Of a stretch of 39,361 bases of DNA, positions 5,013 to 38,348 are shown in pieces (position 1 is the stretch's first letter; the number at the start of each line of letters is the position of its first letter). The stretch lies in contig JAICXC010000041.1 in the NCBI GenBank assembly GCA_025980665.1, positions 1-39,361 on the forward strand. Direction: 5' to 3'. The position numbers and the translations under genes were made by a program. Origin of the DNA: Bryobacteraceae bacterium. Its GTDB lineage: Bacteria > Acidobacteriota > Terriglobia > Bryobacterales > Bryobacteraceae. Under the pieces are notes generated by a model. It was not told where the DNA came from, searched no databases, and saw only the letters and a list, made by a program, of their open reading frames with translations.

Positions 5013-6361
5013 CGATAGCCGAAATCGGCGCGGCGTTGCGCAGCAAGAAGATTTCGGTTCGTGAGCTGACGGAAGAAACGCTGCAGCGGATCGCCGACGC
5101 GAATCCACGTCTGAATGCTTTTATCACGGTTACGGGCGTGGCGGCACGGTTGCGCGCAGCGGTACTAGATCACGAGCTCGCGTGCGGCGTCGACCGGGGA
5201 CCTTTGCACGGCATTCCGATCGCTCACAAAGACAACATTTTCACTCGCGGCGTGCGCACCACCGGTGGATCGAAAATCTTCGCCGATTTCGTGCCGGACT
5301 ACGACGCGACCATCGTGAGCCAGTTGAACGATGCGGGCGCCAATGTAATCGGCAAAACTGGGCTGCACGAGTTTGCCTACGGCATCACCTCCAACAATCC
5401 GCACTTCGGTGCGATTCGCAATCCATGGGATCCGGAGCGGGTTCCCGGGGGATCGAGCGGCGGATCGGCTGCAGCGGTGGCGGCGGGACTCGTTCCTCTC
5501 GCGACCGGTACGGATACGGGTGGGTCGATTCGCATCCCGGCGGCATTCTGCGGCGTGGTGGGGTTGAAGCCGACCTATGAGCGAGTCAGCCGCAGAGGCG
5601 TGATGCCGCTCGGACTGACGCTCGATCACGCGGGAGTGCTGGCGGCCACAGTTCGAGACGTCGCTCTGGCCCTCAGCCCGATCGCGAAACATTCGAGCGG
5701 CTACCGGCCCGTTACTCACGCTGATCTTCGCGGCATGCGCATTGGTGTACCGGAGAACTTCTTTGTGGAGCGCATCGCTCCAGATGTCATGCTCTCGTTT
5801 CGCGCAGCGGTTCAGACTGTGGCGGCGCTGGGAGCGCACGTGACCGAAATCAAACTGCCCGACGTTGAGGCCATCAACGTCGCAGGTCGTATCGTCCAGC
5901 TTTCGGAAGTCTCGGCGCTGCTGGCGCGTTACCTTGACCGGCGTGACGAATTTGGACGGGACATCCAGGTTCTGGTCGAGCAAGGCCGGCTGATTCCTGC
6001 CATCGATTACTTGAACGCGCAGCGAGTGCGCACCGTACTGGTGCGGGACTTCTCGAAAATCTGGAAGCATCTCGATTGCCTGATGACTCCCGCGACGCCG
6101 ATGACTGCGCCCAAAATTGGCGAGATGAATGTCGCCATCGGCACGTTCACCGAAGACGTTCGCACCGCAGCAACGCGCCTGACGCGGCCGTTCAACGTGT
6201 TGGGTTGGCCGGCGCTGGCGCTGCCGTGCGGATTCTCAAGCGCGGGCATGCCGATCGGTCTACAAATGGTCGCTCCACCGCAGCAGGAAGACACCCTGCT
6301 CCAGGCTGGTGCGGCGTTGGAAGATGCTTTCGGAATCGTGGGCCGGCACCCGCCCACGTAG
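5009..6361 (+). CDS. Amidase signature family enzyme
   Basis: A 450-residue amidase-signature hydrolase. The Ser-cisSer-Lys triad is visible: Lys74 in IAHKDNIF, the cis-serine in the [10 protein letters not shown] loop (about 148-154), and nucleophile Ser173 in [12 protein letters not shown]. Length fits GatA/AtzE-type enzymes. The start is GTG 5009, overlapping the upstream small ORF by 4 bp; an in-frame upstream GTG at 4985 would lie inside that ORF and is less likely. No GatB lies nearby, so a role as a general or catabolic amidase is likelier than tRNA amidotransferase. The next gene, a convergent MFS transporter, ends 1 bp away. Substrate unknown. Confidence 0.92.
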
Positions 6362-6362
6362 T

Positions 6363-24484: not shown

Positions 24485-25516
24485 CTACCGGAAGGCAATT
24501 TTGGACTTGCGATCTTCTTCGGCCTTGATTCCAGGACCGAACAGGCTCTCGAAGAAGCCTTCTTTCACCAGGCGGTCCACTAAGCTGTTGTCGATCACTT
24601 TGTGAAAATCGTAAGCCCGCATCTGCGCCGCGATTTGCGGATCGGCAACGTGTTCCAGGATGTATTTAACTGCTGCGGCCGGAAGATAAGGGACACGTTC
24701 GTAGGTGTTTACTTCCTTGTAGTGGTCGTAGGTGCGCTCTAGCTCGGCCGGATCTTGCTTGTCCCAGGCCTGATACGCCTTCAGTGCGAAGGCCTTATCG
24801 TCATAGAAACGTTTGATCGCTTCGGCGTGCGCTTTCATCAGCAGTTCGGGCAGTTTAGGATTGGCGGCGATGGTCGCCTTCCGGAATAAGTACACCGAGG
24901 GCGCGTAAATGTCTTCGTAGTCGCTGATGTTGCCGAGGTTGGTGTAGCCCTGTTCCTCGATCTTGAAGTACACGGGTGCGGTGATCATGGTTGCGTCGAC
25001 GCGTCCGCTAAGCAGAGCCGTGGCGCGAGTGCTGACATCGCCGCCAGTGGGCACCCATTGGATGTCGTGAGGCTTCAGGCCGGCCTTGGCGATGAGGCCA
25101 TTGGTGTAGTTGTAGGGAGCGTCGCCCACCTGGCTCACGCCGATGCGTTTTCCCTTGAGATCCTGAACACGTTTGATGTCTTTGGTCGCCATGAGGGCGA
25201 AGAGGCTCTTCTTGAAGGGACTACCCAGAACAACAAGCGACCCGTCTTTGTAGGCGGCCGTCATGGATTGCTCCAGCGTGTAAGGAGTCATGACAGCTTC
25301 GCCGCTTACAACCATCGCGATGCCGGCGGGATGAATGGCAAAGACTAAGTTTGCGTCAAGCCCGTACTTCTGGTAATAGCCGCCTTCCTTGGCAATGTAG
25401 AGCGGCCAAACTTGACCGGTTCGGGTAGCGTAGTTGATGGTGATTTTCTGGAGTTGCTGCGCCGACGCGGCTTGCGCCGCCAGGAGAATGGCGAACAATG
25501 CGATACGCCGGTTCAT
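24485..25516 (-). CDS. ABC transporter solute-binding protein, NMT1/SsuA-like
   Basis: A 343-residue periplasmic binding protein. The signal peptide MNRRIALFAILLAAQAASAQ is followed by the NMT1/THI5-like fold: ITINYATRTGQVWPLYIAKE, GGYYQKYGLDANLVF, then DLKGKRIGVSQVGDAPYN and a hinge at LLSGRVDATMITAPVYFK. These bind small anions or aromatic/sulfonate compounds (TauA/SsuA group). It is the last gene of the leftward six-gene run, 15 bp after the extradiol dioxygenase. No permease or ATPase gene lies here, so it must borrow a transporter core or act as a sensor. Context points to an aromatic substrate for the pathway next to it. Confidence 0.9.
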   Translation of the reverse strand: MNRRIALFAILLAAQAASAQQLQKITINYATRTGQVWPLYIAKEGGYYQKYGLDANLVFAIHPAGIAMVVSGEAVMTPYTLEQSMTAAYKDGSLVVLGSPFKKSLFALMATKDIKRVQDLKGKRIGVSQVGDAPYNYTNGLIAKAGLKPHDIQWVPTGGDVSTRATALLSGRVDATMITAPVYFKIEEQGYTNLGNISDYEDIYAPSVYLFRKATIAANPKLPELLMKAHAEAIKRFYDDKAFALKAYQAWDKQDPAELERTYDHYKEVNTYERVPYLPAAAVKYILEHVADPQIAAQMRAYDFHKVIDNSLVDRLVKEGFFESLFGPGIKAEEDRKSKIAFR

Positions 25517-25531
25517 TGCAGCACTACTAAA

Positions 25532-26539
25532 CTAGCACCAACGCGCGAACCCCATGGCGCTGCCGGTCCCCGCGTCGGATCGATAACAAGGTACGTAATC
25601 GACCAGACTCATTTTGAGTCCAGCTTCGGCCATAACGCCCGCGACCACGATCCAATTCTTAATCTCGGAGGTCCCGGCCTGGAACATATTTTCGGGAATG
25701 CTGGCGAGCTTGGCCGCGTCCCCTGCCTGCATCGTATCGAGCAGTTCGTGATCGAAGGATTCATCGAGGACGAAATGCGTCATGCCGCCCGATGCAATGA
25801 ACGCCACTTTAATATCCGCTGGCCACGACGTGACCGCACGTGCGAGTGCCCGGCCGAACTGGAAGCAGCGTCCGGCTGGGGGCTGGTTGGGAGGATAGAA
25901 CGTATTCACGAGCAGCGGGACCTGCATGGGCACTCTATCGCGCATGATGCGGCGGTACACGAACCCATAGGCGTGGGGCACGGCGTTCGACCCGATCTCG
26001 CCGGTCGGAAGCTTAGTGAGCTGGGAAACATCAAAGCCGTCCGTGATGACGCTCTGGATGACGTGTTTGCCGAGCTCGGGCGAACATGGATAGTCGGTAT
26101 GAACGGAGGGCGTGCGATCGGCCTCGGCGCGCGCCACGGCTGGATTGAGCTTCGCCAGGAATTCGGGCGACCTGGGGTGACCTTCCACGTGATCGCCCCA
26201 GAACACGGCGAACGCCGGAACATGCTGATCGGTGAAAATCTCCATCTGGTCATTGCCGACGACTACCGCGATATCCGGGCGGTGCTGATCGAAATAATCG
26301 GCGAGTTGTCGGATCGCATTCTGGTTGCGGTTATGCCGTTCCAGCATGACTTCGGGGGTGATCTGATCGGCCAGGTGGGCATCTTTACGCAAGGTCACCA
26401 TTTCGTCGAACGTGTAAGTTTTGCCCCGGTAGAAATGACGCGCCTGGCGATCGAATGAGACCCGATCCTTCCAGTACTCTGGCGGAATCGAGAGCATGGG
26501 GCCGTGCGAGGTGCCGAGCCCGAAGGTGATCTTCGCCAT
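25532..26539 (-). CDS. LigB-family (class III) extradiol ring-cleavage dioxygenase
   Basis: A 335-residue non-haem Fe(II) dioxygenase of the LigB/gallate-dioxygenase superfamily. His12 (GLGTSHGPM) is a family iron ligand; His69 in LERHNRNQ and Glu260 region (GGMTHFVLDE) are plausible further ligands. His189 in SNAVPHAYGF matches the catalytic His. The C-terminus DYVPCYRSDAGTGSAMGFA is typical of gallate- and protocatechuate-cleaving members. Length fits a one-piece enzyme rather than the separate LigA/LigB. It lies 4 bp after the LigJ-type hydratase and 15 bp before the binding protein. The probable role is oxygenative opening of a catecholic ring to an oxalomesaconate-type product; substrate is inferred from context. 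Confidence 0.85.
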   Translation of the reverse strand: MAKITFGLGTSHGPMLSIPPEYWKDRVSFDRQARHFYRGKTYTFDEMVTLRKDAHLADQITPEVMLERHNRNQNAIRQLADYFDQHRPDIAVVVGNDQMEIFTDQHVPAFAVFWGDHVEGHPRSPEFLAKLNPAVARAEADRTPSVHTDYPCSPELGKHVIQSVITDGFDVSQLTKLPTGEIGSNAVPHAYGFVYRRIMRDRVPMQVPLLVNTFYPPNQPPAGRCFQFGRALARAVTSWPADIKVAFIASGGMTHFVLDESFDHELLDTMQAGDAAKLASIPENMFQAGTSEIKNWIVVAGVMAEAGLKMSLVDYVPCYRSDAGTGSAMGFARWC

Positions 26540-26543
26540 GTTG

Positions 26544-27575
26544 CTACCTCGATACCGTTTGAGCTTCTTGAGCTCGCGGGATTTTCAATCGCGAGAACAG
26601 CCGGCGGGCATTGTCCTCGAAGATGTTGCGGCGGTCTTCGTCGGTAAGCGTCTGGATCGCATCGATCAGCGGCTTGATGTCGTCGAAGGGCTTGCCCGTT
26701 TCAGGGTTAGGAGCCGATCCCGAACCCGGATTCTCGGTTCCGAACATCACATGTTGGCTGCCCGCGATGCCCAGTAGCAGCTCGAGCGACTTGCGCGCAT
26801 GCAGGCAGGTATCAAAGTACAGCATGCCCAATCTACGATTGAACTCGTCGACCGTTCCGCCGCCCTTGAGGACGTAATCGGCCTGCCAGCGCCCGATCTG
26901 ATACGGCACCGATCCGCCGCCGTGCGAAACGATAATCTTGAGTTTCGGAAAATCCTGCAATACGCGCGAGTTCACAATTGAAAGGATCGCCAGGCTCTCT
27001 TCGGTGATGAAATGTTGGCTATAGTTTTCGCGTCCATGCTTGCAGCCGGTCGAATGAATGAGCCCCGGCAGATCCAACTGGACCATCTTCTCCCAGAGCG
27101 GATACCAATATTCGTCGCCCAGCGTGGGCGTGCTGTTGTCGCCTTCGCCCGGGTCGGTGTCGATCAGCAGTCCGATGAATCCGAGATCCTTGACGCAGCG
27201 GTCGATTTCCGCGAAGCCCAGCGTGACGGGCGCGCCGGGAGCCTGCGGGATCGCGCAAACGCCCTGGAACCGGTTGGGAAAAGCCTTGACCTGCTGAGCG
27301 ATGTAATCGTGATTTGCCACCGCCCAGGCTTCCATAATCTTGACGGGCTTCTCGGCGTGCATGAGCTGGAAAGGCCTGGGCGATAGAAATTGTACGTCGG
27401 TGCCGACGGTATCCATAACCCGCAAATTTCGCTTGGTGTCCGGGTGATCGCGCACCCAATCGTCGGCGAATTTCTTGGGCGTGAACCCATGCGCCCCGCG
27501 TGCCGACATCTGGTTCGCTTTCCACTGATACAGCTCCGGAGCCGCGCAGACGTGGGCATGAATATCGATGATCAT
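26544..27575 (-). CDS. LigJ-type 4-oxalomesaconate hydratase (amidohydrolase family)
   Basis: A 343-residue TIM-barrel protein. The metal ligands His6/His8 (MIIDIHAHV), His174 (LIHSTGCKHG) and Glu281 (MFGTENPGSG) match the arrangement reported for LigJ (His6, His8, His178, Glu284). ACMSD-type decarboxylases have Asp in the last position. LigJ hydrates 4-oxalomesaconate to 4-carboxy-4-hydroxy-2-oxoadipate in the protocatechuate 4,5-cleavage and gallate pathways. It sits directly between the extradiol dioxygenase (4 bp) and the ankyrin gene (2 bp), which strongly supports this assignment. Other pathway enzymes (aldolase LigK, tautomerase) are not in the window. The ACMSD decarboxylase alternative is less likely because of Glu281. 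Confidence 0.8.
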   Translation of the reverse strand: MIIDIHAHVCAAPELYQWKANQMSARGAHGFTPKKFADDWVRDHPDTKRNLRVMDTVGTDVQFLSPRPFQLMHAEKPVKIMEAWAVANHDYIAQQVKAFPNRFQGVCAIPQAPGAPVTLGFAEIDRCVKDLGFIGLLIDTDPGEGDNSTPTLGDEYWYPLWEKMVQLDLPGLIHSTGCKHGRENYSQHFITEESLAILSIVNSRVLQDFPKLKIIVSHGGGSVPYQIGRWQADYVLKGGGTVDEFNRRLGMLYFDTCLHARKSLELLLGIAGSQHVMFGTENPGSGSAPNPETGKPFDDIKPLIDAIQTLTDEDRRNIFEDNARRLFSRLKIPRAQEAQTVSR

Positions 27576-27577
27576 TC

Positions 27578-28855
27578 CTAACTCTCCTTCAATCCATACC
27601 GGCGCAAGATCTCTTGCACTGCTTCGGTGCCTCCCAGCTTGTCGGGCATGCGCGCTCCCGCGTCGAGCAGGACTCTGACCGTTGCGGGGTAATCGCCGGC
27701 TTCACGATACCATCCATTCTGAGACCCGTGGATAGCCCAATTCAGGGGCGTGACTCGGTAGTCATTGTCGGAATTTTCGATCGGCCCGCCATGATCCAAA
27801 ATCTGCCGAACCAACTCCGCTCGTCCATGCCACGCGGCCCAATGCAGAGGAGTCGCATGATGCTGTCCGAAGCTCTCCGCGGGTAGGCCGGCAGTCAACA
27901 TCAGACTAGCGGCGACGGGATCATTGTTTCTGGCTGCGTGCGCGAGTTGCCGGCGACCTTCGGCAGGCAGGGTGGCAGCGAGATCGGGATTCACGGCAAG
28001 CAATGATTTCACCAGGGCTTCATCGTGCAGCCAACACGCGTTGAGCAGTCTCTCGTCGGCGGGGCATCGTTCCAGGAGAAGCTTGAGGACTTCCGTGTGA
28101 CCGAACGATTTGGCTACCTGAAAGGCGGAAACATGCCATCCGAGTTCCCACTGATAAATGGTGCCGCCGGAGTGGAAGTTCGCTTTCGGGAAATACTGAT
28201 CGTTCACGCGCGTGCGAATGCATTCCGGGTCGGCCTGTAAATGTTTCTCGATCAGGGCAAGATCGCCGAGCGCGGCGGCCATGAGGATGTCCGACTTCGC
28301 ACCGCGCTGGATCAAAAACCGCACGATTTCCGGGCGCGACCGAACCATGTATTGCGCCGGAGTCGATTCGTGGTCGACGTCACGAGCATTGATGTCCGCG
28401 CCCTGATCAAGCAGGTACTCGGCGATCTTGATGGTCGAAGCGAAGTGCAGCGGCGTCTGCCCGTCGCCGCCTCGAGCGTGAACCAAAGCGGGATCGGCTG
28501 TGATCAGTTCCTTGAGTCGATCGATCATGCCCAGCCGCGCCGCCGCATGAACCGTGACCACCGCCCCGCGTTTGATCGCGCTGGCAGCAACCTCAGGGTT
28601 GGCGTGGTCCAGCAGTCCGAATCCCCCAGCCCACCATTTGCTACGGGCGTTGATGTCCGCCCCCGCTTCGAGCAGTGCGCCCAGCATCGCTTCGCTACGA
28701 GCCCATAGGATCAAAGGCGAATCGAAATGGGAAATCGTCTCATTGATCCCGGCTCTCAGCTCCGGACATTGGTCCAGCAACTGTCGGAAGCCCGCGACAT
28801 CATCGTCTCGTAACGCTCTATTGGCGAGCGGCACGGCTTCGGTTTTGGAGATCAT
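27578..28855 (-). CDS. Cytoplasmic ankyrin-repeat protein in the catabolic operon
   Basis: A 425-residue protein with no signal peptide and at least seven ankyrin-like units. Examples are LGALLEAGADINARS, DGQTPLHFASTIKIAEYLLD, QGADINARDVDHESTP, IVRFLIQRGAKSDILMAAAL, HATPLHWAAWHGRAELVRQI and RVTPLNWAIHGSQNGW. The repeats begin near residue 45 and are degenerate in the middle (about 200-260). It lies in tight spacing between LigJ-type hydratase and RidA (2 and 10 bp), so it belongs to the operon. Ankyrin proteins bind other proteins; here it may scaffold or tune the enzymes. Such a component is not known from the sphingomonad lig operons. Specific partner unknown. Confidence 0.85.
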   Translation of the reverse strand: MISKTEAVPLANRALRDDDVAGFRQLLDQCPELRAGINETISHFDSPLILWARSEAMLGALLEAGADINARSKWWAGGFGLLDHANPEVAASAIKRGAVVTVHAAARLGMIDRLKELITADPALVHARGGDGQTPLHFASTIKIAEYLLDQGADINARDVDHESTPAQYMVRSRPEIVRFLIQRGAKSDILMAAALGDLALIEKHLQADPECIRTRVNDQYFPKANFHSGGTIYQWELGWHVSAFQVAKSFGHTEVLKLLLERCPADERLLNACWLHDEALVKSLLAVNPDLAATLPAEGRRQLAHAARNNDPVAASLMLTAGLPAESFGQHHATPLHWAAWHGRAELVRQILDHGGPIENSDNDYRVTPLNWAIHGSQNGWYREAGDYPATVRVLLDAGARMPDKLGGTEAVQEILRRYGLKES

Positions 28856-28865
28856 CGCTTGGAAG

Positions 28866-29252
28866 TCAACCGACGAAGGCGATCACTTCGCATTGCACCA
28901 GCATACCCGGCGGCAGATCGGGCGCTGGAAACGTGTGGCGAGCGGGGCGCGAATGCGGATCGGGGAACATCGCTAGCCATTCCTTGTTCACGTGCGGACG
29001 CAGAGCGCGGTCCTTGATCCACACATTGATCTTGGCGATATCCTCCGGCGTTGCCCCCGCCACCTTGAGAATTTCCCGGATCGATGCGAACATCTGCGCG
29101 CATTGCGCCTCAATGCCCTCGGGATATTTGCCGGTGAAGGGCTCCTTCCCGGATACCCCGCTGGTAATCAAAAAGGGTCCCACGCGACACGCCGCTGGAA
29201 TGGGATTATCGTGCTCGAACCCCGGAATTTCGATGCTGATCCGTCTACTCAT
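28866..29252 (-). CDS. RidA/YjgF family protein
   Basis: A 128-residue RidA-like protein with the trimeric alpha/beta barrel pattern: RVGPFLITSGVSGKEPFTGK, IEAQCAQMFASIREILKVAG, and DIAKINVWIKDRALRPHVNK. The catalytic-type Arg105 in PARHTFPAPDLP and Glu122 near the end (QCEVIAFVG) are kept. RidA deaminates reactive enamine/imine intermediates; relatives include the 2-aminomuconate deaminase of aminophenol degradation. In this operon it may clear an enamine, or hydrolyse a related intermediate. Its ATG overlaps the stop of the cupin gene by one base (TAATG). Confidence 0.93.
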   Translation of the reverse strand: MSRRISIEIPGFEHDNPIPAACRVGPFLITSGVSGKEPFTGKYPEGIEAQCAQMFASIREILKVAGATPEDIAKINVWIKDRALRPHVNKEWLAMFPDPHSRPARHTFPAPDLPPGMLVQCEVIAFVG

Positions 29253-29707
29253 TACGAAGGGCCTTCTGCAAGCATTTGAATGCCATATTTCAGTCTGATG
29301 GAGTTGCGCTTGCCTTCGTCAGCAGCGTCCTGCGGCGACAGCGCGTCGAGTTCCTGGGCAAACGCATCAAAGCCACCCGGGATGAAGGTCGTCAAGGCCC
29401 GGCTTGGCGTGGTCCCAGGATTGCGAAATGCGTGCGGGATGGTCCGGGGAAGAACCGCCATCGCACCCGCCTCCGCCGTGAAGACTCTTTCGCCGCAGCG
29501 AATCTCGAATGCCCCCTCCAAAATGTAATAGACCTCGTCTTCGCGACTATGCACATGCAGGGGCACGCCTTCTCCTGGCGACGCGACCAATTCGAAAGCG
29601 CAGTATTCGCCCAGGGTGCTCGCGCTGCTGATACGGCAGGTCAGGTTGCCAAGAAAGACTCGCCCCTCTCCCGGTGGAACAAAGACCGGTTTTCGTCCGG
29701 ATTCCAT
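29252..29707 (-). CDS. Cupin-domain protein
   Basis: A 151-residue single-cupin protein starting at ATG 29707. Metal-site residues appear in LHVHSREDEVYYILEGAFEI (His-x-His and Glu) and in IPHAFRNPG (second-motif His). The profile is that of small quercetinase-like or regulatory cupins. It is the first gene of the leftward operon, starting 7-9 nt after an AT-rich box in the 26-bp gap to the divergent CoA-transferase. A role as dioxygenase or isomerase of a pathway intermediate is possible, but the length and sequence do not fit 3-hydroxyanthranilate dioxygenase. Function unproven. Confidence 0.9.
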   Translation of the reverse strand: MESGRKPVFVPPGEGRVFLGNLTCRISSASTLGEYCAFELVASPGEGVPLHVHSREDEVYYILEGAFEIRCGERVFTAEAGAMAVLPRTIPHAFRNPGTTPSRALTTFIPGGFDAFAQELDALSPQDAADEGKRNSIRLKYGIQMLAEGPS

Positions 29708-29733
29708 AAGCGACCCTATATAATAACCGAAGC
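29708..29733. promoter_or_regulatory. 26-bp bidirectional AT-rich promoter gap
   Basis: The only sequence between two divergent operons. It contains TATATAATAA (29717-29726). On the plus strand TATAAT (29719-29724) lies 9 nt before ATG 29734. On the minus strand TTATAT/TATAGG-type hexamers lie 7-9 nt before ATG 29707. There is no room for a leader or ribosome site, so both operons probably start leaderless or nearly so. No -35 is evident. Confidence 0.5.
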
Positions 29734-30909
29734 ATGGGACCACTCGCCTCCATTCGCGTGCTCGATCTGACGCGTGTGCGCTCTGGCCCGACGGCAGTTC
29801 GTCAACTGGCTGACTGGGGCGCGGATGTGATCAAGATCGAACAACCCGCGCAGGACGACGTCGATCCATTTGGAGGCGGCGAGCGACATAGTCCGGATTT
29901 CCAGAATCTGCATCGCAACAAGCGCAGCCTCACGCTTAATCTCAAAACACCAGAGGGCGTCGCGATTCTGAAGCGGCTGGCCGAGAACGCCGACGTGATG
30001 ATTGAGAATTATCGACCCGATGTGAAACGGCGCCTGGGCATCGATTATCCGGCGATGCGCGCGGTTAACCGGCGCTTGATCTACGCCAGCATTTCCGGAT
30101 TCGGCGAAGAGGGTCCCTACCGCGACCGGCCAGGATTCGATCAGATCGCGCAGGGCATGGGCGGATTCATGTCGGTTACCGGATTACCGGGGCAGGGTCC
30201 GGTGCGCGCGGGCATTCCGATTGCCGATCTGTGCGCCGGTATCCTGTGCGCGCAGGGTGTCCTGCTCGCGTTGATCGAGCGGCAGACGTCGGGAGAGGGC
30301 CAGTGGGTGACGACTTCGCTGCTGGCCGCGCAGATTTTCATGCTGGATTTCCAGGCCTCGCGCTGGCTAAATGCGGGCGAGGTGCCGAAACAGGCGGGCA
30401 ACAATCATCCGCTATACATTCCAACGGGAGCGTTCAAGACCGCCGATGGGCACATCAATATCGGAGCCAGCGGCCAGAAAATGTGGGAGCGGCTAGCCCC
30501 CGCCATCGGTGCTCCAGAGCTACTGGATGATCCCCGGTACACTAATGCCGACCAGCGCTCTGCGAATCGTGACATGCTGACGGCCGAGATCGAACGCCGT
30601 CTGGCGTCGGCGGATAGCGCATCTTGGATCGAACGTCTCAACGCAGCCGGCGTGCCATGCGGGCGGATCTATTCTGTCGATCAGGTTTTCGCCGATCCGC
30701 AGGTGGAACACTTGAAGATGGTGGACGAGATCGAATCGCCGCACTATCATCCGTTGAAGGTGGTTGCGCAGGCAATGCGGCTATCGCGCACGCCGCACGA
30801 GTTGCGGCAGCGGCCCCCGGAACCGGGCGAGCACACAGATGAAATTCTTGGTTCGTTAGGGCTCGCGCAGGCGGAAATCGACGATCTGCGTAGCCGGGAA
30901 ATCGTGTGA
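29734..30909 (+). CDS. CaiB/BaiF family (class III) CoA-transferase
   Basis: A 391-residue CoA-transferase that moves CoA between carboxylates through an enzyme-bound anhydride. The fold starts IRVLDLTRVRSGPTAVRQLA (close to the FRC/BaiF N-terminus). Catalytic Asp165 is in GIPIADLCAGILCAQGVLLA, matching FRC Asp169. The C-terminal EIESPHYHPLKVVAQAM completes the domain. It is first gene of the rightward operon and overlaps the crotonase by 4 bp (GTGA). It would activate a ring-cleavage product or related acid as a CoA thioester for the next two enzymes. Confidence 0.94.
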   Translation: MGPLASIRVLDLTRVRSGPTAVRQLADWGADVIKIEQPAQDDVDPFGGGERHSPDFQNLHRNKRSLTLNLKTPEGVAILKRLAENADVMIENYRPDVKRRLGIDYPAMRAVNRRLIYASISGFGEEGPYRDRPGFDQIAQGMGGFMSVTGLPGQGPVRAGIPIADLCAGILCAQGVLLALIERQTSGEGQWVTTSLLAAQIFMLDFQASRWLNAGEVPKQAGNNHPLYIPTGAFKTADGHINIGASGQKMWERLAPAIGAPELLDDPRYTNADQRSANRDMLTAEIERRLASADSASWIERLNAAGVPCGRIYSVDQVFADPQVEHLKMVDEIESPHYHPLKVVAQAMRLSRTPHELRQRPPEPGEHTDEILGSLGLAQAEIDDLRSREIV

Positions 30910-31682
30910 ACAAAATACTGTCAGAAACGAGCGGGTCGGTTGGCACGCTCACCTTCAACAATCCGGAGCGCCACAATGCTATGTCGCTCGATATGTGGCG
31001 CGGCGCCACGGCTTTGCTTGAGCAGTTCGAACAAGATGCGGCCGTGCGCGTGGTCGTACTTACGGGCGCGGGCGGCAAGGCGTTCGTCTCGGGCGCGGAT
31101 ATATCGAAATTCGACAGCGAACGAGCTTCGGCCGATGCGGTGCTCGAATATAACGCCGCGGTGGACCGATTCGGGCAAGTGTTGGGAGAGTGTTCGAAGC
31201 CGACCATCGCCATGATCCGCGGCTATTGCGTGGGAGGGGGCGTCGGCATCGCCGTGTGCTGCGACCTGCGCATCGCCAATGAAACCGCCCGCTTTGCTGT
31301 TCCGGCGGCCAAGCTCGGCCTGGGCTATGGATACGCGAACGTGCGGCGCATCATGGATCTGGTGGGTCCGCAGTTCGTGACCGAGATGTTGCTGACCGCG
31401 CGCCAGTTCGACGCTGCTCAAGCCGAGCGCATTGGCCTGGTGAATCACGTGGTCGCGGAGAGCGAAATCGAAAGCTATGTGTGCAATCTCGCCGAAACCA
31501 TCGCGGCGAATGCCCCGCTGACGATCCGCGCGGTGAAACGCATTGTCCGCGAATTGCGGAGCGACGATCCCGATATCGCCGCGTGCGACGCTTTGGTCAG
31601 ACAGTGTTTTGAGAGCGCCGATTATAGCGAGGGCCGCCAGGCATTCCTCGAAAAACGAAAACCAGTCTTTCGAGGGGTCTAA
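30906..31682 (+). CDS. Enoyl-CoA hydratase/isomerase family protein lacking catalytic glutamates
   Basis: A 258-residue crotonase-fold protein. The oxyanion segments are intact: SGADISKF (A64/D65) and GYCVGGGVGIAVCCDLRIA (G110-G112). The two hydratase glutamates are absent. The position of rat Glu144 is Gly114 (GGGVG) and that of Glu164 is Ala134 (FAVPAAKLGLGYGYANVRRI). Members with VPAAKLGLGY form a known subgroup whose chemistry is not standard hydration, so isomerase, thioesterase or decarboxylase activity is possible. It is coupled to the CoA-transferase by a GTGA overlap; TAA 31680-31682 is immediately followed by the next ATG. Confidence 0.9.
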   Translation: MNKILSETSGSVGTLTFNNPERHNAMSLDMWRGATALLEQFEQDAAVRVVVLTGAGGKAFVSGADISKFDSERASADAVLEYNAAVDRFGQVLGECSKPTIAMIRGYCVGGGVGIAVCCDLRIANETARFAVPAAKLGLGYGYANVRRIMDLVGPQFVTEMLLTARQFDAAQAERIGLVNHVVAESEIESYVCNLAETIAANAPLTIRAVKRIVRELRSDDPDIAACDALVRQCFESADYSEGRQAFLEKRKPVFRGV

Positions 31683-32645
31683 ATGAAAGCCGTATACATC
31701 GAACAAACCGGCGGTCCGGAGGTCTTGCGCGTCGGCGACCATCCAGTCCCTGAACTGCAGAAAGACGAAGTCCTGGTGAAAGTTGCAGTATCGGGCGTCA
31801 ATTTCACCGACCTCAACCAACGCAGCGGCGTCAATAAGATTCCGGTTCCCGCGGTTCTGGGATCCGAAGGTGCGGGGACGGTGGAACGGTCCGATTCATC
31901 CGCTTTTCAAACCGGAGATCGAGTGGCCTGGTGCATGGTGCGCGGTTCCTATGCCGAATATGCGGCCGTTCCGGCACGCATGTTGGTCCGGATCCCCGAC
32001 GGTATCGATTTCCGCACCGCGGCTGCGGCGATGCTCCAGGGCATGACGGCGCACTATCTGTCGCACTCGACCTTCCCGCTCAAGACGGGCCACATCGCGC
32101 TGATTCATGCGGCGGCGGGCGGCACTGGTCGTCTACTGGTACAGATGGCGACGATGTTGGGGGCGCGTGCCATCGGCACGGTAGGGACTCCAGCCAAGGC
32201 CGAGCTAGCCCGTGAAGGGGGTGCGAGCGAAGCGATTCTATACAACCAGCAGGATTGGGTGGCCGAGGTGACGAAATTGACCGACGGCAAGGGCGTGGAC
32301 GTGGTCTATGATTCCGTCGGCCAAGCCACGTTTCTCAAAGGTCTGGACTGCCTGAAGCCGCGCGGCATGATGGTTCACTTCGGAGTATCGAGCGGCCAGA
32401 TCGAACCGTTCGACACGCGTGGGCTGACGACGCGTGGTTCAATTTTTCTCGCACGGCCCACACTGAACACCCACATCGCGGATGCAAAGGAACTGGCTTG
32501 GCGTTCGAGCGACGTATTCCTCTGGATCGCCCAAGACAAGCTGAAGTTACGGATCGATCGGGAATATCCGCTGGGTGACGCAGCTCAGGCGCATCGCGAT
32601 TTAGAATCTCGAGTGACGAGCGGAAAAGTTCTGCTGCAGATCTGA
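31683..32645 (+). CDS. Quinone oxidoreductase / zinc-free MDR-family reductase
   Basis: A 320-residue medium-chain dehydrogenase/reductase of the QOR type. The N-terminal GroES-like part contains VSGVNFTDLNQRSGV, PAVLGSEGAGTVE and GDRVAWCMVRGSYAEYA. The Rossmann part shows AMLQGMTAHYLSHSTFPLK, LIHAAAGGTGRLLVQMATML (nucleotide-binding) and VDVVYDSVGQATFLKGLDCL. No zinc-binding Cys/His set is present, as in QOR enzymes that reduce quinones or enoyl groups with NADPH. It follows the crotonase with no gap. With CoA-transferase and crotonase it probably processes an unsaturated CoA ester or quinone; the rightward operon ends at a strong hairpin. Confidence 0.92.
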   Translation: MKAVYIEQTGGPEVLRVGDHPVPELQKDEVLVKVAVSGVNFTDLNQRSGVNKIPVPAVLGSEGAGTVERSDSSAFQTGDRVAWCMVRGSYAEYAAVPARMLVRIPDGIDFRTAAAAMLQGMTAHYLSHSTFPLKTGHIALIHAAAGGTGRLLVQMATMLGARAIGTVGTPAKAELAREGGASEAILYNQQDWVAEVTKLTDGKGVDVVYDSVGQATFLKGLDCLKPRGMMVHFGVSSGQIEPFDTRGLTTRGSIFLARPTLNTHIADAKELAWRSSDVFLWIAQDKLKLRIDREYPLGDAAQAHRDLESRVTSGKVLLQI

Positions 32646-32652
32646 AAGTAAC

Positions 32653-32672
32653 GTCCGGCCTGGAGGCCGGAC
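32653..32672. terminator. Perfect 8-bp stem hairpin between convergent genes
   Basis: GTCCGGCC (32653-32660), loop TGGA, GGCCGGAC (32665-32672). It is an exact inverted repeat immediately after the quinone oxidoreductase stop and directly before the ankyrin gene's stop (minus), so it can end both transcripts. No T-run follows. The palindrome may be a dispersed repeat of REP type. Confidence 0.6.
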
Positions 32673-34463
32673 CTACTGGCAACCTTTTACGCCCTTGGTC
32701 AAGCAGATCGAGGACGTGATATCGGGCGGAATCGGAAGACCCTTGTCCGCCATCAGCTTCTTGATGAATACTGTGGTCTCCGGATGCGCGATGGCCGATT
32801 GCACGCCCACGCGGACCAAGCCTTCCGAGTAGTGCACCGGAACCCAGGTCATGCCCTTCATGGCGCCGTTGATCGTGTCGCGGCTCCCGTTATCGTGAGC
32901 CTCCAGATCGCCGCCGCGGTCCACCAGCATCTGGATGATCTCGTTGCGGCCCTTGTGCGCCGCGCCGTGCAGCGACGTGCGTCCGTCTTCGTCGTGGACA
33001 TTGGGATCGAGACCCAGATCGAGCAGCATCTTGACCGTCTCGTCGTTTTGCTCCCGCGACCATTCGTAGGTGACGCCCTCGACCCAGGCGATTCCGGAGG
33101 CCACGGCCAGCGCGGTAACATTGCGCGCAGTGTAGATCTTAGGATCGGCTCCATGCGCCAATAGCAGCTTCATGAGCTCTACGTCGCTGGATTGCGCGGC
33201 ACGCAGGAACGGCGTCGCCCCATCCTCGTTGAGCCACTGCATGGTGAAATTGGTGCGTGTTTCGGTGCTATCCCCGACGCAGGTGGTGGCGGTCGATTGC
33301 GTTCCGCACACCCGTACGTTCACGTCAGCGTTCTTGGCCAGCAGCAGCTTGATGAAGTCCAGGTGGTCCATATCGGGCTTGCGGACCGGATAGTCGCCGC
33401 CCTCGATGTTGCGGTTATCGGTGGCCAGGTACAGAGGCGACCACCCGCCGTTGTTCTTGATATTCGGGTTGGCGCCGTGGTCGAGCAGATACGCCCCGAT
33501 TTTGTAGTGGCGGTTCTGCGTGGCCGTCAGTAGCGGAGTCCAGCCGTAATGCGTAACCTGATTGACGTCCGCGCCGGCGGCGAGCAACTCTTTGACGCAC
33601 TCCATGCAGTCCTGCCGGGTGGCGAACACCAGCGGGGTGATTCCGCCGCCATCGGTGTCGCGTGTGCGGCCAAATGCAAATTCGGCCGCAGCCGCATCGA
33701 GCGCCGCGACTTGATCCTCTTCCGCCGTGCCCGCAGCGCCGGCCTTAGCCTGCTTGGCCTGCTTGGCTTGCCCCCCGCCGCCAAAACCGCGCCCGCCCTG
33801 CTTGCCTTGACGCAGACCGCCGGCGCCCTGATCGGACGCCGCTCGCTGCCGAACGGTGGGCGCCAGGTACGCACGATTGCCCTTGGTGTCGAAATTTGAG
33901 GCAGCCTTGTAGTCCGCACCGCTCGCCAGCAGCAGTTTGACGGCTTCAGGATGCGATTGTTCCGCGGCCCACATCAGCGGCGTTGTGCCGCGCAGCTTTT
34001 CTTTCGCATTCACATCGGCTTTCTGGTCGATGAGCACCTTGACTGCGTCCGGATTGCCATTGCGCGCCGCGAACATCAGAGGCGTCTCGCCATTGGGGCT
34101 GACTTCGTTGGCATCCGCGCCGGCCTTGAGCAGACGTTGGATCATGGGCGCGCTTCCGTTAATGCTGGCTAAACGCAGGGGCGTCGCTCCGTCATGGTTG
34201 GGTTTTTTTACATCCGCCCCGGCGGCGATAAGCAGATCGGCGATGTCCACATCGTTGCGGTAAGCTGCCCACTGGATGGCTGTGGCTCCATCGGCCTGCG
34301 CCAGGTTCACGTCCGCCTTTTGTTTGATTAGCGCCTGCACCGCGGCTTTATCGCCTTTCATGGCAGCGTCGGCCACCGGGCTGTCCGCGGCGTTCAGAAC
34401 CGTAAGATAGATTGCCGGAACCAATAGCACGGCAGCAGCTGCCACGGCGTGTCGGATACGCAT
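32673..34463 (-). CDS. Secreted ankyrin-repeat protein
   Basis: A 596-residue exported ankyrin protein. ATG 34463 gives the signal peptide MRIRHAVAAAAVLLVPAIYL and has an AGGAG ribosome site. About a dozen repeats follow, e.g. DGATAIQWAAYRNDVDIADL, NGETPLMFAARNGNPDAVKV, RGTTPLMWAAEQSHPEAVKL, YGWTPLLTATQNRHYKIGAY and DGRTSLHGAAHKGRNEIIQM. Near the middle a low-complexity linker (GGRGFGGGGQAKQAKQAKAG) includes two 9-bp repeats. The C-terminus has KGVKGCQ. It is the third gene of an operon with DUF1552 (52 bp upstream) and DUF1592 genes, the usual acidobacterial trio. Role unknown; likely periplasmic binding or scaffold. Confidence 0.9.
   Translation of the reverse strand: MRIRHAVAAAAVLLVPAIYLTVLNAADSPVADAAMKGDKAAVQALIKQKADVNLAQADGATAIQWAAYRNDVDIADLLIAAGADVKKPNHDGATPLRLASINGSAPMIQRLLKAGADANEVSPNGETPLMFAARNGNPDAVKVLIDQKADVNAKEKLRGTTPLMWAAEQSHPEAVKLLLASGADYKAASNFDTKGNRAYLAPTVRQRAASDQGAGGLRQGKQGGRGFGGGGQAKQAKQAKAGAAGTAEEDQVAALDAAAAEFAFGRTRDTDGGGITPLVFATRQDCMECVKELLAAGADVNQVTHYGWTPLLTATQNRHYKIGAYLLDHGANPNIKNNGGWSPLYLATDNRNIEGGDYPVRKPDMDHLDFIKLLLAKNADVNVRVCGTQSTATTCVGDSTETRTNFTMQWLNEDGATPFLRAAQSSDVELMKLLLAHGADPKIYTARNVTALAVASGIAWVEGVTYEWSREQNDETVKMLLDLGLDPNVHDEDGRTSLHGAAHKGRNEIIQMLVDRGGDLEAHDNGSRDTINGAMKGMTWVPVHYSEGLVRVGVQSAIAHPETTVFIKKLMADKGLPIPPDITSSICLTKGVKGCQ
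33748..33765. repeat. Two 9-bp repeats coding the QAK linker
   Basis: GCCTGCTTG occurs twice in tandem within the ankyrin gene and is followed by a decayed third copy. The repeats encode the QAKQAKQAK low-complexity linker. It is a possible length-variable site. Confidence 0.6.
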
Positions 34464-34514
34464 CGTCGATTTTCTCCTGTTGAGCATGAGCAATTGAAAT
34501 GTCGAACCAGCGAA

Positions 34515-35882
34515 TTAAACGGCGAACCCTGCGAGCCTGCCCGTGCTATCGTCCCCGATCTTGTCCTGATTCACTCCAAACACATCCAGGACGCTCAGCA
34601 GGAGATTGGCCGTGGTGACCGTCTTGGTGGGGAAGTGGAGGTGCCGCCCGCCCTTGAGCTTGCCGCCTGCGCCGCCCGCCAAAATATATGGCACATCGTA
34701 ATGCAAGTGCTGGTTGGAATCGCCCATGTTGGTGCCGTACAGGACCAGAGTGTGATCCAACAGGTTGCCGTCCCCATCGGGGATACTCTTCAGTTTGCCC
34801 AGGAAGTAAGCCAGGCAGAGCACATGGTAGCGGTTGATCTTCGAATAGTCGAGGATGCGATCCGGATTCTCGGCATGGTGCGATCCGCCATGGAAGCTGG
34901 TGTTGGTGCCGCTGGCCGGGAAGCTGCGGCCGGTCAGATCGCGGGCGTAAAGCAAGGTCGAAACCCGCGTGATGTCGCCCTGATAAGCCAAAGCCTGCAG
35001 GTCGAACTGTAGCTTGATATGTTCGTCGAAGGAATCCGGCACGCCAGCGGGGACCACGATGCCTTCGTGGCTCTCCATCGTTCCCGTGGCCTTAGTTGCG
35101 ATGGTCAGACGCCGTTCGATTTCACGTACGCTGTCGGCGTATTCATCGACGCGAAGCTGATCGCTAGGTGGAAGAGTTTTCTTAAAGGCGGCTAAAGTGC
35201 CGGTGATCGAATCGAGAATACTACGATCCTGCTCACGGCGTGCCGCTCGCTCTTGAGGCGTCTTGGCCTGTACGTCGCCGAACAGGCGCTCGAACACCAC
35301 CTGAGGGTTCAGTTCCATGGGCAGCGGAAGATTGGTGGCGGCCCAGGAAATGGAATTCGTGTAAGCGCAGCTGTAGCCCTCGCCGCAGTTGCTGGAATTG
35401 GCGCCCGGATCTTCGATAGCCTGCTGCAGAGAAGGCAGCAAAGATTCCTGTCCGATATGATTGGCGATGATCTGGTCGATGGTAACGCCGTTGTGGATAT
35501 CCGAGCCGGTGGCCTTTTTAGGCTTTTCACCCGCCAGGAAGGCTGCCGCAACCCAGTGATCCGCGCCCGTGACGCCCGGAGGCGGTTCGGCCGATTTCGA
35601 CCACAATCCACTAATAATTACACTCTGGTCCACGTAGGGCGCCAGGGGTTCCATGATGGACGGAAGTTTCTTGGCGTCGAGGACGCTGCCTTCCGGGATC
35701 CAATAGCCCGGCGCCATTCCATGCGGCACGAAAATGCCGGTAAAACGGGTCTTGCCGACTGCCGCGGTCTTGCTCAAGGGCGTCTGAGCTGGAATCATCG
35801 AATCCAGCAAGGGCAACGCGAGGGTAATCCCTGCGCCACGCAGAAACGTCCGACGGGGTATGTGCTTCTTAGTAAGGAACAT
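34515..35882 (-). CDS. DUF1552 protein with twin-arginine signal
   Basis: A 455-residue exported protein. The N-terminus KHIPRRTFLRGAGITLALPL is a Tat signal. The DUF1552 body contains KTRFTGIFVPHGMAPGYWIP, SVIISGLWSKSAEPPPG, DHWVAAAFLAGE, and YGTNMGDSNQHLHYDVPYIL near the C-terminus. The family is related to alkaline-phosphatase-like DUF1501 proteins, found with cytochrome-bearing DUF1592 genes in Planctomycetes and Acidobacteriota. It probably binds a cofactor in the cytoplasm before export. It is the second gene of the operon, 36 bp after DUF1592. Enzymatic function is unknown; a redox or glycan-degradation role is often inferred. Confidence 0.92.
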   Translation of the reverse strand: MFLTKKHIPRRTFLRGAGITLALPLLDSMIPAQTPLSKTAAVGKTRFTGIFVPHGMAPGYWIPEGSVLDAKKLPSIMEPLAPYVDQSVIISGLWSKSAEPPPGVTGADHWVAAAFLAGEKPKKATGSDIHNGVTIDQIIANHIGQESLLPSLQQAIEDPGANSSNCGEGYSCAYTNSISWAATNLPLPMELNPQVVFERLFGDVQAKTPQERAARREQDRSILDSITGTLAAFKKTLPPSDQLRVDEYADSVREIERRLTIATKATGTMESHEGIVVPAGVPDSFDEHIKLQFDLQALAYQGDITRVSTLLYARDLTGRSFPASGTNTSFHGGSHHAENPDRILDYSKINRYHVLCLAYFLGKLKSIPDGDGNLLDHTLVLYGTNMGDSNQHLHYDVPYILAGGAGGKLKGGRHLHFPTKTVTTANLLLSVLDVFGVNQDKIGDDSTGRLAGFAV

Positions 35883-35918
35883 TGTTTCCGCTCTCCATTC
35901 AATTATAAATCTTTAACA

Positions 35919-38348
35919 CTAGCGGGATGCGCGCTCCTGTCCATTCCCGCTCGATTCCAGTTTCTGATTCATCTGGAACGGCTGGCTCTTCACCACGCCG
36001 ATCACCAGTGACGAGAACCGATCTTTGTCTTTGTCGGCCGAGTGCACGATGGAGCGCACCAGAGGCATATCGTAGTATTCAGTTCCGCGGCCCAGCGCGT
36101 AGATCATCAGCTTCTCGGTGACTACCCGAACGAACTGCGGCGAGTATTTGACCAAGGCTTCGCGCAGGTCGGTAACCCCGTTCAGCTTGGTGCCGTCCAC
36201 CAGTTTGCCGGAAGGATCAATCGGGCTGCCATCATCCAGCGTCCGCCATTGTCCGGTTCCATCGAAGTTCTCGAGGACTAGCCCTATGGGATCCATGATC
36301 TTATGGCAGCTGTTACAAGGCTCATTCTTGCGGTGCAGCTCCATCTGCTGGCGCATGGTCGGCCGGGGGCCGCCACGAATGGCCGCGTCCTGCTTCGGAA
36401 GATCCGGGACATTCGGAGGAGGCGCCGGAGGCTCGACGCCCAGGAATATCTGCAGCGTGTACTTCCCGCGGTGAACCGGCGAAGTCCGGTCGGGATTCGA
36501 AGATATGGTCAGGAAGGCGCCCTTTCCGAGCAGGCCCCGGCGCATGTCGAATTCCGGCGGCAGCGTGACCCGGCGGAAATTGCTGCCGTAGATGCCCGGG
36601 ATTCCGTACTGCTTGGCCAGCCGTTCATTCAGGAACGTATAGTTCGCGTCGAGAAGATCCGTCACCGGACGGTCTTCCTGAATCACACTAGCCACGAACA
36701 TTTCCACTTCCGTCCGCATGGCCTGGCGCAGAACGTCGTCGAAATCCGGATACTCGATAGGTACCGGAGTCTGAGATTGCAACGCCCGCAAGCTGAGCCA
36801 CTGACCGGCAAAATTGCTTACCAGCTGCTGGGACCGCGGATCCTTGAGCATACGCCGGACCTGTTGTTCGAGGACGGCGCTCTCGTGCAGCTTGTTCTGG
36901 CTGGCAAGCTTTAGGAGCTCATCGTCGGGAATGCTGCTCCACAGGAAGAAGGACAAACGCGAAGCCAACTCCAGATCGCTGATGCGATAGATCTGCCCGG
37001 CGGCTAAGTTGGCCGGCTCAGTTTCGCGGCGGAACACGAATTCGGGGTCCGCGAGGATACGCCGCAGCGCCATCTCAACGCCATTGTCGAAATTACCTTC
37101 ATTCCGCCCGCGCTGATAAAAGCCCATCAGGGTTTCGGTGTCCTTGTCGGACAGCGGGCGGCGGAACGCCTTGCGTCCGATGTTGTTGACGATCTGGCGC
37201 GCGCAGGCGGTTTCCTGGCTGGCATTGGCCGGCTTGCAAACGAAGATCTTGCGGCGGGCGGCGGTGTCGCTCGCCCCCTTCGCATCGTAGGGGCCGTCGA
37301 TTACGAACTTGCCGACGTGCGGGAAGAAGCGGTATCCGGGGAGTCCCCCGGTTTCGATGGTGCTGCGCAGAAAGTGCTCGTTTAGGTCGTTTCCAGGCGC
37401 CTCATTCGTTGCCAGGAACGTGACCACCACGGTGTGGCGCCCCGCCTTGGCCGGGAATTTGAAATCGAATGTGCCGTCGCCGCCACGTCCCTCACGATCG
37501 CGATCCCAGTCGAATACGTGCAACCGCTCGCCATCCAGCAGTACTTCCAGCTTCTCGCCGGGGATCTCGCCGAAGGGATTGGTGTTCCCCATGTTGCCCT
37601 TGCTGATGGGAGTGATCTTCATGCTGTACTCGCCGTCGGCAGGGAATTCGTGCTGTGCCAGCATGCCGCCGCGGGTTCCGAAAGGCATGCCTTCGACGTG
37701 ATAATCCTGATCGGTGTCTTCCGCCACCCGATAGGTAGTCTGGGTGGGGGTGCTCACGTCGCCAATCGCCAACCGGCTGATCTTGCCCGCCGCAGTGACG
37801 TAACCCTCCAGCAAGGTCGGCGAAATGCTCAGTGCGCCCGCAATGTTATCGAAGCCGCGTGTCGAATCGTCGGAGGGCAGAAACTTGCTCGGATCGATCT
37901 GGATATCCAGCAGATCGCGGATCGCATTGGCGTATTCCGTGCGGTTCATGCGATGCAACCCGGGGGGAGGAATATGCAGCTTGGCGTTTCGGTCGAGTTC
38001 GTTCTCGGCGAACACGATGGCCGATTCGAGGAACTCCGGCTTCGGCCGTGGCATGCCCGAAGGCGGCATCATGCCCGCCCGGAGCTTGCGAACCACCTTC
38101 TCCCACTGTTCCGGGTCCTTATCGACGTGGGCCGGATCCAGGCTATCGAGCGTAATGCGTAACGCCGATTCGACGCCGCGCGTCTTGGCCGCCTGATTGT
38201 GACAGCCATAACAATATTGAGTAAAGAACGCCTTTTCGGCTTCGGCGGAGGTCACCGTTGCGGGGGCCGCAGGCTTCTGGGCCTGGCCCGACATTCCAAT
38301 AACACCCAGTATGGTGGCTGCACAGCCTACCAGGATTTTTGTTCGCAT
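35919..38348 (-). CDS. DUF1592-type multidomain cytochrome c protein
   Basis: An 809-residue exported protein. The signal peptide ends near residue 22 (GMSGQAQ). A first haem c site CYGCH (Cys46, Cys49, His50) opens the PSCyt-like domain, with RAGMMPPSGMPRPK providing the axial-Met region. DUF1587 (HRMNRTEYANAIRDLLDI), a carbohydrate-binding-like segment (about 200-320), DUF1592 (SRLSFFLWSSIPDDELL) and DUF1588 (RRGLLGKGAFLTISSNPDRT) follow. A second haem site CNSCH lies near residue 675, ahead of the C-terminal DUF1585 region. The start has an AAGGA ribosome site. It heads an operon with DUF1552 and secreted ankyrin proteins, consistent with periplasmic electron transfer coupled to polymer degradation. 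Confidence 0.94.
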   Translation of the reverse strand: MRTKILVGCAATILGVIGMSGQAQKPAAPATVTSAEAEKAFFTQYCYGCHNQAAKTRGVESALRITLDSLDPAHVDKDPEQWEKVVRKLRAGMMPPSGMPRPKPEFLESAIVFAENELDRNAKLHIPPPGLHRMNRTEYANAIRDLLDIQIDPSKFLPSDDSTRGFDNIAGALSISPTLLEGYVTAAGKISRLAIGDVSTPTQTTYRVAEDTDQDYHVEGMPFGTRGGMLAQHEFPADGEYSMKITPISKGNMGNTNPFGEIPGEKLEVLLDGERLHVFDWDRDREGRGGDGTFDFKFPAKAGRHTVVVTFLATNEAPGNDLNEHFLRSTIETGGLPGYRFFPHVGKFVIDGPYDAKGASDTAARRKIFVCKPANASQETACARQIVNNIGRKAFRRPLSDKDTETLMGFYQRGRNEGNFDNGVEMALRRILADPEFVFRRETEPANLAAGQIYRISDLELASRLSFFLWSSIPDDELLKLASQNKLHESAVLEQQVRRMLKDPRSQQLVSNFAGQWLSLRALQSQTPVPIEYPDFDDVLRQAMRTEVEMFVASVIQEDRPVTDLLDANYTFLNERLAKQYGIPGIYGSNFRRVTLPPEFDMRRGLLGKGAFLTISSNPDRTSPVHRGKYTLQIFLGVEPPAPPPNVPDLPKQDAAIRGGPRPTMRQQMELHRKNEPCNSCHKIMDPIGLVLENFDGTGQWRTLDDGSPIDPSGKLVDGTKLNGVTDLREALVKYSPQFVRVVTEKLMIYALGRGTEYYDMPLVRSIVHSADKDKDRFSSLVIGVVKSQPFQMNQKLESSGNGQERASR

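Follow-up and report, generated by a model that had tools for sequence, protein, structure and literature searches.

A divergent gene cluster of the LigZ and LigY families in a Bryobacteraceae genome: a likely second meta-cleavage set

The 39,361-nucleotide stretch of a Bryobacteraceae genome (assembly GCA_025980665.1, contig JAICXC010000041.1; hereafter the window) contains a divergent cluster of nine genes between positions 24485 and 32645. It is rather likely that this cluster encodes a second, diverged meta-cleavage set of the LigZ/LigY type, equipped with a binding protein of its own and, in some of the genomes, with an arm dependent on coenzyme A (CoA). As part of the same explanation, and with the same moderate confidence, we propose that it stands beside another LigZ/LigY set of the same genome, one more similar to that of Sphingobium sp. 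SYK-6. An initial annotation of this DNA had described six leftward and three rightward genes, spaced by -1 to 15 bp and sharing one gap of 26 bp, and all nine are present as follows.

24485-25516, minus strand: SBP-A, a solute-binding protein of the NMT1/SsuA type (Pfam NMT1, 90.7 bits)
25532-26539, minus strand: LigZ-A, an extradiol dioxygenase of the LigB fold and the LigZ family (Pfam LigB, 73.5 bits)
26544-27575, minus strand: AmH-A, an amidohydrolase of the LigY/LigJ group (Pfam Amidohydro_2; LigY structure 5vn5, 284.5 bits)
27578-28855, minus strand: ankyrin-repeat protein (Pfam Ank)
28866-29252, minus strand: RidA/YjgF-family protein (Pfam Ribonuc_L-PSP, 64.5 bits)
29252-29707, minus strand: small cupin with an ATG start (Pfam Cupin_2, 59.3 bits)
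29708-29733, no strand: divergent gap of 26 bp; the TATAAT at 29719-29724 probably serves as -10 element for both operons (conserved in 6 of 6 caiB loci)
29734-30909, plus strand: CaiB-type (class III) CoA-transferase (Pfam CoA_transf_3, 403.8 bits)
30906-31682, plus strand: crotonase-fold protein with a GTG start (NCBIfam NF004781, 371.6 bits, above the cut-off of 291)
31683-32645, plus strand: medium-chain dehydrogenase of the NADPH:quinone reductase type (NCBIfam NF008024, 261.8 bits, below the cut-off of 348; Pfam zinc-type dehydrogenase)

The dioxygenase, from which, together with the adjoining hydratase, a gallate- or protocatechuate-like route had initially been deduced, is a relative of LigZ, an enzyme of the pathway for the lignin biphenyl 5,5'-dehydrodivanillate (DDVA). 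When a LigZ-family profile built from 13 relatives was run over the genome of SYK-6 (NC_015976), strong matches were obtained at 818825-819829 (E 2e-124) and 2099887-2100873 (E 1.3e-132), and the matches to LigB (8.5e-11) and to three other places (5e-15 to 2e-12) were weak. The gene at 818825-819829 ends 1.4 kb before a gene that holds all 329 residues of the LigY chain in the PDB, letter for letter, and because of this exact match and the gene order dioxygenase, RraA, RraA, LigY, we identified it as LigZ, the other strong match being a paralogue. In PMC12997858, LigZ and LigY of SYK-6 are SLG_07720 and SLG_07750, respectively. Since the profile finds the LigZ of SYK-6 strongly and LigB weakly, the window dioxygenase is called LigZ-A. 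Of the nine NCBIfam families listed for it, none reached its cut-off, the best score being 72.6 bits where 290 are required.

LigZ-A contains His12, Gln98, His189, His255 and Glu292, and its GNDQ motif aligns with YNDH of LigB (1b4u), which places Gln98 opposite His61. In LigB, the iron ligands are His12, His61 and Glu242, and His195 is catalytic. LigZ-A might thus be regarded as inactive as a dioxygenase, because Gln98 occupies the place of the second His ligand of LigB, but this is extremely improbable in view of the retention of His12, His255 and Glu292 in all 83 rows of an alignment and of a low ratio of non-synonymous to synonymous substitutions (dN/dS, 0.016). In addition, LigZ of SYK-6, which is named OH-DDVA dioxygenase in PMC6874591, carries the same Gln, and therefore Gln98 does not exclude activity. 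Across the 83 rows, among which that of the SYK-6 paralogue duplicates L084, Glu100 and His189 are constant as well, and at position 98 there are 81 rows with Gln and two with His (L079 and L087), a share of Gln that is inflated because one of the two peptide patterns of the homologue scan (GNDQ[MR]E[IVF]F and VDYVPCYR; best 80 of 231 matches kept) contained Gln. Two plasmid homologues found independently of these patterns also carry Gln at this position. In an AlphaFold2 model of LigZ-A (mean predicted local distance difference test score 94.0, predicted template modelling score 0.93), Gln98 lies directly after a strand that ends at residue 96.

The amidohydrolase had been described as a LigJ-type hydratase, and this assignment is not supported by solved structures, among which AmH-A is nearest to LigY (5vn5; 284.5 bits, 42% identity), followed by LigJ (6dxq; 225.6 bits, 35% identity) and then ACMSD (88 bits). 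No NCBIfam family matched AmH-A at E<=0.001. The residues His6, His8, His174 and Glu281 pointed out in the initial annotation are present and invariant over 31 aligned rows (the window and 30 relatives). However, these metal ligands are common to LigY and LigJ, and the presence of the Glu ligand, which had been suggested as a check of the LigJ assignment, cannot tell the two apart. In contrast, the residue at position 190 of LigY is Tyr in AmH-A, in LigY and in all other non-LigJ rows (36 of 40), and Thr in LigJ and its three relatives. Tyr190 is a catalytic residue of LigY. In a tree of 39 rows, the window AmH-A and eight acidobacterial proteins formed a clade of their own (nine rows, support 100/99), the LigJ clade was separate (four rows, 100/100), and 26 rows including LigY were grouped at 81/82. 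This tree was rooted on the LigJ clade by choice, and the AmH-A clade then falls on the LigY side, which by itself does not prove a closer relationship to LigY. An earlier tree with other SYK-6 amidohydrolases as outgroup was set aside because its branches reached lengths of up to 8.7, and the final one was built without these four rows and without L073. Judging from its similarity to LigY, AmH-A is probably a C-C hydrolase of a ring-cleavage product.

A survey of 237 genomes of the family showed that LigZ-A belongs to a set of genes that is present or absent as a whole at the thresholds applied (E<=1e-60 for LigZ-A, LigZ-B and RraA1, E<=1e-50 for AmH-B); in some genomes the first-look candidates outnumbered those scored, and weak relatives may be missed. 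LigZ-A was found in 16 of the 237 genomes, and LigZ-B, a second dioxygenase (40-44% identity), in exactly those 16, neither of them occurring in any other; the same 16 contain RraA1. AmH-B, which is 54% identical to LigY, was present in 15 of these 16 and in none outside (the copy of G220 reads through one stop). In the sixteenth, the window genome G000, AmH-B is split between two contig ends, with one piece on C52 and the other on C160, and both pieces show 80% identity to the AmH-B of G015. Three genera are represented, with 10 of the 23 genomes of the window's own genus, five genomes of g77 and one of g29, which suggests, from a matching uncorrected for kinship, that the set has been gained or lost as a unit. 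Within the window's genus, an ABC (ATP-binding cassette) permease (at least 72% identity) occurs in the same 10 of 23 genomes as the set, and RraA2 follows RraA1 in the 10 loci read. The order in G015, G001 and G008 is AmH-B, binding protein, ATPase, permease, LigZ-B, RraA1 and RraA2. In the window genome, C160 carries the ABC genes and the RraA1/RraA2 pair, and C188 carries LigZ-B together with the associated binding protein. The RraA pair located between LigZ and LigY in SYK-6 (L135:7860-9202) recurs in the acidobacterial set with 58% and 63% identity, and LigZ-B, AmH-B, RraA1 and RraA2 of the window's relatives repeat the LigZ-RraA-RraA-LigY set of SYK-6, with ABC genes in addition. LigZ-A (17 rows) and LigZ-B (8 rows) formed separate clades in a quick tree, with a support of 100 each in the Shimodaira-Hasegawa-like approximate likelihood ratio test (SH-aLRT), which indicates that they are not recent duplicates. 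Beside LigZ-B of G007, a gene with a LigXa_C match (C62:56193-56861, L188 at about 6194-6862; 56.3 bits with neighbouring pieces) directly follows the dioxygenase gene.

Other roles can be considered for the RraA proteins and for AmH-A. In PMC12673573, the hydration step of the SYK-6 pathway is listed as not identified, and the aldolase is given as HMG aldolase, which is related to RraA. The hydratase of that step might be encoded by one of the two RraA genes. Alternatively, this alkene hydration could be carried out by AmH-A, acting on the 4-carboxy-2-hydroxypenta-2,4-dienoate-type product of LigY, since its family includes both a hydratase (LigJ) and a hydrolase (LigY) and since a second hydrolase might be superfluous with AmH-B present in all 16 genomes. 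However, AmH-A retains the Tyr190 of LigY where LigJ has Thr, and, being missing in seven of the 16 genomes, cannot be a general hydratase; such a function seems rather unlikely.

The relationship of both enzymes to LigZ and LigY also bears on the proposal that the cluster is a gallate or protocatechuate 4,5-cleavage operon with a LigJ-type 4-oxalomesaconate hydratase. The folds (PF02900 and Amidohydro_2) and the ligands His6, His8, His174 and Glu281 are those expected from such an operon, and LigJ-type genes were found in 11 of the 16 genomes with LigZ-A and in 3 of the 221 others (Fisher p 6e-13, kinship uncorrected). Such genes are therefore enriched in the genomes with the set, yet they are not bound to it, as five of the 16 lack them. 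Furthermore, the nine genes include neither a LigA-type nor an aldolase gene, and the same genome has a LigJ orthologue on C119, 65% identical to LigJ of SYK-6, and on C144 an RraA gene adjoining a LigB-type gene with GSDH (33% identity to LigB of SYK-6). RraA, LigB-type and LigJ genes are located side by side in G009 (C622) and G007 (C88). Altogether, LigJ-type matches (34-36% identity to AmH-A) occur in 14 of the 237 genomes, the identity as LigJ having been verified in G000, G009 and G007. It seems from these genes that the gallate/protocatechuate route lies elsewhere in the genome. We consider a LigJ-dependent gallate route in the window very improbable and rejected it, because LigZ and LigY are nearer, the LigJ clade is separate, and LigJ and a LigB-type gene are found elsewhere in the genome. 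The suggestion of a distinct acidobacterial variant held in one respect, in that the ring-cleavage cluster is special to Acidobacteriota (the eight relatives in the AmH-A clade are all acidobacterial records), and failed with regard to the type of pathway.

It is likewise very improbable that the cluster encodes an aminophenol or aminobenzoate pathway in which RidA is a 2-aminomuconate deaminase and the amidohydrolase an ACMSD-like decarboxylase. The combination of RidA, cupin and amidohydrolase is reminiscent of the 3-hydroxyanthranilate (nba) route. Against this, AmH-A scores 88 bits with ACMSD versus 284.5 with LigY, on which ground this possibility was rejected; the cupin, whose Pfam matches are Cupin_2, Cupin_1 and AraC_binding, is confined to the window, 12 of the 17 loci gave no RidA match, and no semialdehyde dehydrogenase is encoded among the nine genes.

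The conservation of the cluster was analysed in 17 LigZ-A loci (the window and L041-L056). The counts are lower bounds for L045, L047, L048 and L052, whose contigs end early, and 15 of the 16 other loci correspond to the 15 other LigZ-A genomes of the family list, with L049 being outside it. The record of L053 is titled Bordetella parapertussis, yet its LigZ-A falls inside an otherwise acidobacterial clade, and the bin is probably mislabelled. Two other genomes have eight of the nine genes in an unchanged order and a third has seven, so that the neighbourhood is partly conserved beyond this genome, as the initial annotation would have it, with progressively fewer genes thereafter. When the window was compared with its nearest relative, L041 (NG86), dN/dS was 0.010 for RidA, 0.016 for LigZ-A, 0.026 for AmH-A, 0.029 for CaiB, 0.031 for SBP-A, 0.074 for the dehydrogenase, 0.092 for the crotonase-fold protein and 0.117, the highest of the eight, for the ankyrin protein. 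These eight shared genes are thus under purifying selection and look like functioning genes, and together with the recurrence of the order this makes the cluster more than chance. The cluster as such is confirmed as real.

Not all of its members are equally constant, however. The SBP-A gene adjoins LigZ-A (within 88 bp) in 16 of the 17 loci and is 3.9 kb off in the seventeenth, and the core therefore consists of the dioxygenase and the binding protein (17 of 17 loci). AmH-A is present in nine loci, adjoining LigZ-A in each of them, the dehydrogenase in seven, CaiB in six, the crotonase-fold protein and RidA in five each, the ankyrin gene in three and the cupin in one, the window itself. No cupin was detected in the 16 other loci by tblastn at E<=1e-6, and the best match to it among the 22 other genomes of the genus (46% identity) is in G018, a genome without LigZ-A. 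The cupin and the ankyrin gene are local, lineage-specific additions; of the nine components initially put forward, the cupin does not belong to those shared with relatives. The N-terminus of SBP-A is signal-like as judged by eye. As noted initially, no permease gene accompanies it among the nine genes, and SBP-A is 53% identical to a binding protein that shares one operon with an ABC ATPase and a permease. The description of the crotonase as atypical was also correct: the Glu of GGGLEL in 4k2n, the closest homologue of known structure, is replaced by Gly, the region of the second catalytic Glu reads VPAAKLG, and both usual catalytic Glu residues are likewise missing in four aligned relatives.

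From the gene families, their conserved order, the metal-ligand residues and the co-occurrence of the genes, we infer the following reactions, transport route and CoA-dependent arm for the diverged LigZ/LigY-type set. SBP-A, like its relatives in ABC operons, would catch an aromatic acid in the periplasm, and import would probably proceed through the ABC ATPase and permease encoded on C160. LigZ-A would open a catechol-type ring by extradiol cleavage, and AmH-A may then, in the manner of LigY, cleave the ring-fission product at a C-C bond to yield a carboxylic acid and a short 2-hydroxy-dienoate, which after hydration could be finished by the RraA-type proteins of C160. The released acid may be activated by the CoA-transferase, and its CoA ester processed by the crotonase-fold protein and the reductase, with RidA probably assisting where reactive enols or imines arise as intermediates. 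Candidate substrates would be a lignin-like biaryl or a different substituted catechol.

Several observations weigh against this proposal. The AmH-A clade is on a long branch (1.11), and the branch of the LigY side that excludes AmH-A has a support of 81/82. AmH-A is encoded in nine of the 16 genomes with the set, so that LigZ-A must work without it in the other seven, and the window cluster contains no RraA gene, those of the genome being outside it on C160. CaiB, crotonase and RidA are found in five to six of the 17 loci, which means that the core can do without the CoA arm. In addition, LigXa_C matches were obtained in eight of the 23 genomes of the genus, five of which have LigZ-A; of the ten LigZ-A genomes of the genus, five have none, and in the other five the matches are weak and partial, the highest single score being 32.8 bits (cut-off 27). 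As LigXa-type Rieske genes do not track the set, most of these genomes probably use it on a substrate other than DDVA, and DDVA was rejected as a certain substrate on this distribution. A more far-reaching and distinctly unlikely possibility is that LigZ-A and LigZ-B act in one acidobacterial pathway, for instance by opening both rings of a biaryl in turn, that both, like LigZ, bind iron via His-Gln-Glu and not via the 2-His-1-carboxylate of LigB, and that one of the partner RraA proteins is the hydratase of the DDVA pathway.

The leftward run of six genes is tightly packed (gaps of 15, 4, 2, 10 and -1 bp), with the cupin overlapping RidA by 1 bp and lying between RidA and the promoter region. 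The element TATAATRRSCGAAGC at 29719-29733 directly precedes the caiB start codon in all six loci with a divergent caiB (ATG; GTG in L044), with nine bases between TATAAT (29719-29724) and the start codon. In the window the element reads TATATAATA, a nearly symmetric sequence whose complement provides TATTAT/TATATA in the leftward direction; because of this near-symmetry and of the conservation, TATAAT at 29719-29724 is probably a -10 element shared by both operons. A shared -10 with divergent starts 10-23 bp apart is described for five Escherichia coli gene pairs in PMC12825309. The conservation of the element suggests that the caiB mRNA would be almost leaderless. Counting both strands, the 39-kb window contains TATAAT four times, and one of these copies begins 24 bases ahead of the tRNA gene at 12982. 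A consensus promoter scan of the window did not list the shared -10, in our opinion because no good -35 hexamer precedes it.

Downstream of the rightward operon, a second ankyrin gene and genes of the DUF1552 and DUF1592 types (32673-38348) are convergent with the dehydrogenase, with a terminator-like hairpin in between (32653-32672), and this gene order is kept in the three nearest relatives. Rfam at the gathering threshold gave a tRNA as the sole match.

LigZ-family genes were also seen in other surroundings. At L059, L061, L062, L071, L080 and L113, their neighbours include a gene from the HpaB monooxygenase group (Pfam on the L113 member) and a member of a protein group of which L062:5245-6126 looks by eye like a binding-protein fold without a signal sequence; this protein had no Pfam match and no PDB match at E<=1. 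Near LigZ relatives, L093:4409-5605 encodes a 4Fe-4S protein (Pfam Fer4_16) with homologues in L062, L068, L080, L095, L096 and L114, and by eye it resembles cobalamin-type reductive dehalogenases; a dehalogenase-like protein in this position would fit halogenated phenols as substrates. A LigY-type gene stands just ahead of the LigZ-type gene in nine Cupriavidus/Paraburkholderia loci (L065, L066, L069, L070, L092, L098, L104, L106 and L107), together with RraA-type, Rieske and acyl-CoA-dehydrogenase-type genes (Pfam on one member each). In SYK-6 itself, LigZ/LigY-type genes occur at a second locus (L137, 2088000-2107900), which also contains three RraA-type genes and a Rieske gene of the same homology group as an L107 protein with a LigXa_C domain.

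Cleavage of the LigZ/LigY type is best known from sphingomonads. Among the literature matches listed (titles and abstract openings, including papers that name LigZ together with Acidobacteria, with few subscription journals), nothing was found on LigZ/LigY-type genes in Bryobacterales, on the pairing of LigZ-A and LigZ-B, or on the Gln. In Acidobacteriota, the downstream set, made up of LigZ, LigY and the RraA pair and accompanied by an ABC transporter, is now found in records that are all metagenome bins. The dioxygenase pairing, the constant RraA pair and the Gln at an iron-ligand position pose three concrete questions on biaryl degradation.

In comparison with known systems, LigZ-A is like LigZ of SYK-6 in its sequence (45% identity by tblastn), its GNDQ motif, its His12, His255 and Glu292, and the distance from His12 to position 98, which exceeds that in LigB by approximately 37 residues. 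Unlike LigZ, it belongs to a separate clade (17 rows, SH-aLRT 100), adjoins a binding protein and has no RraA genes alongside. With LigAB and DesB it shares the LigB fold (PF02900), but the similarity is weak (46 bits to DesB, 3wku; 45 bits to LigB, 1b4u), Gln replaces His61, and there is no LigA partner among the nine genes. AmH-A resembles LigY (SLG_07750) in identity (42%), metal ligands, Tyr190, Arg72, His223 and Arg234, and differs from it in its placement in a third clade; within this genome, AmH-B on C52/C160 is more closely related to LigY. To LigJ, AmH-A is 35% identical with the same metal ligands, and it has Tyr190 where LigJ has Thr.

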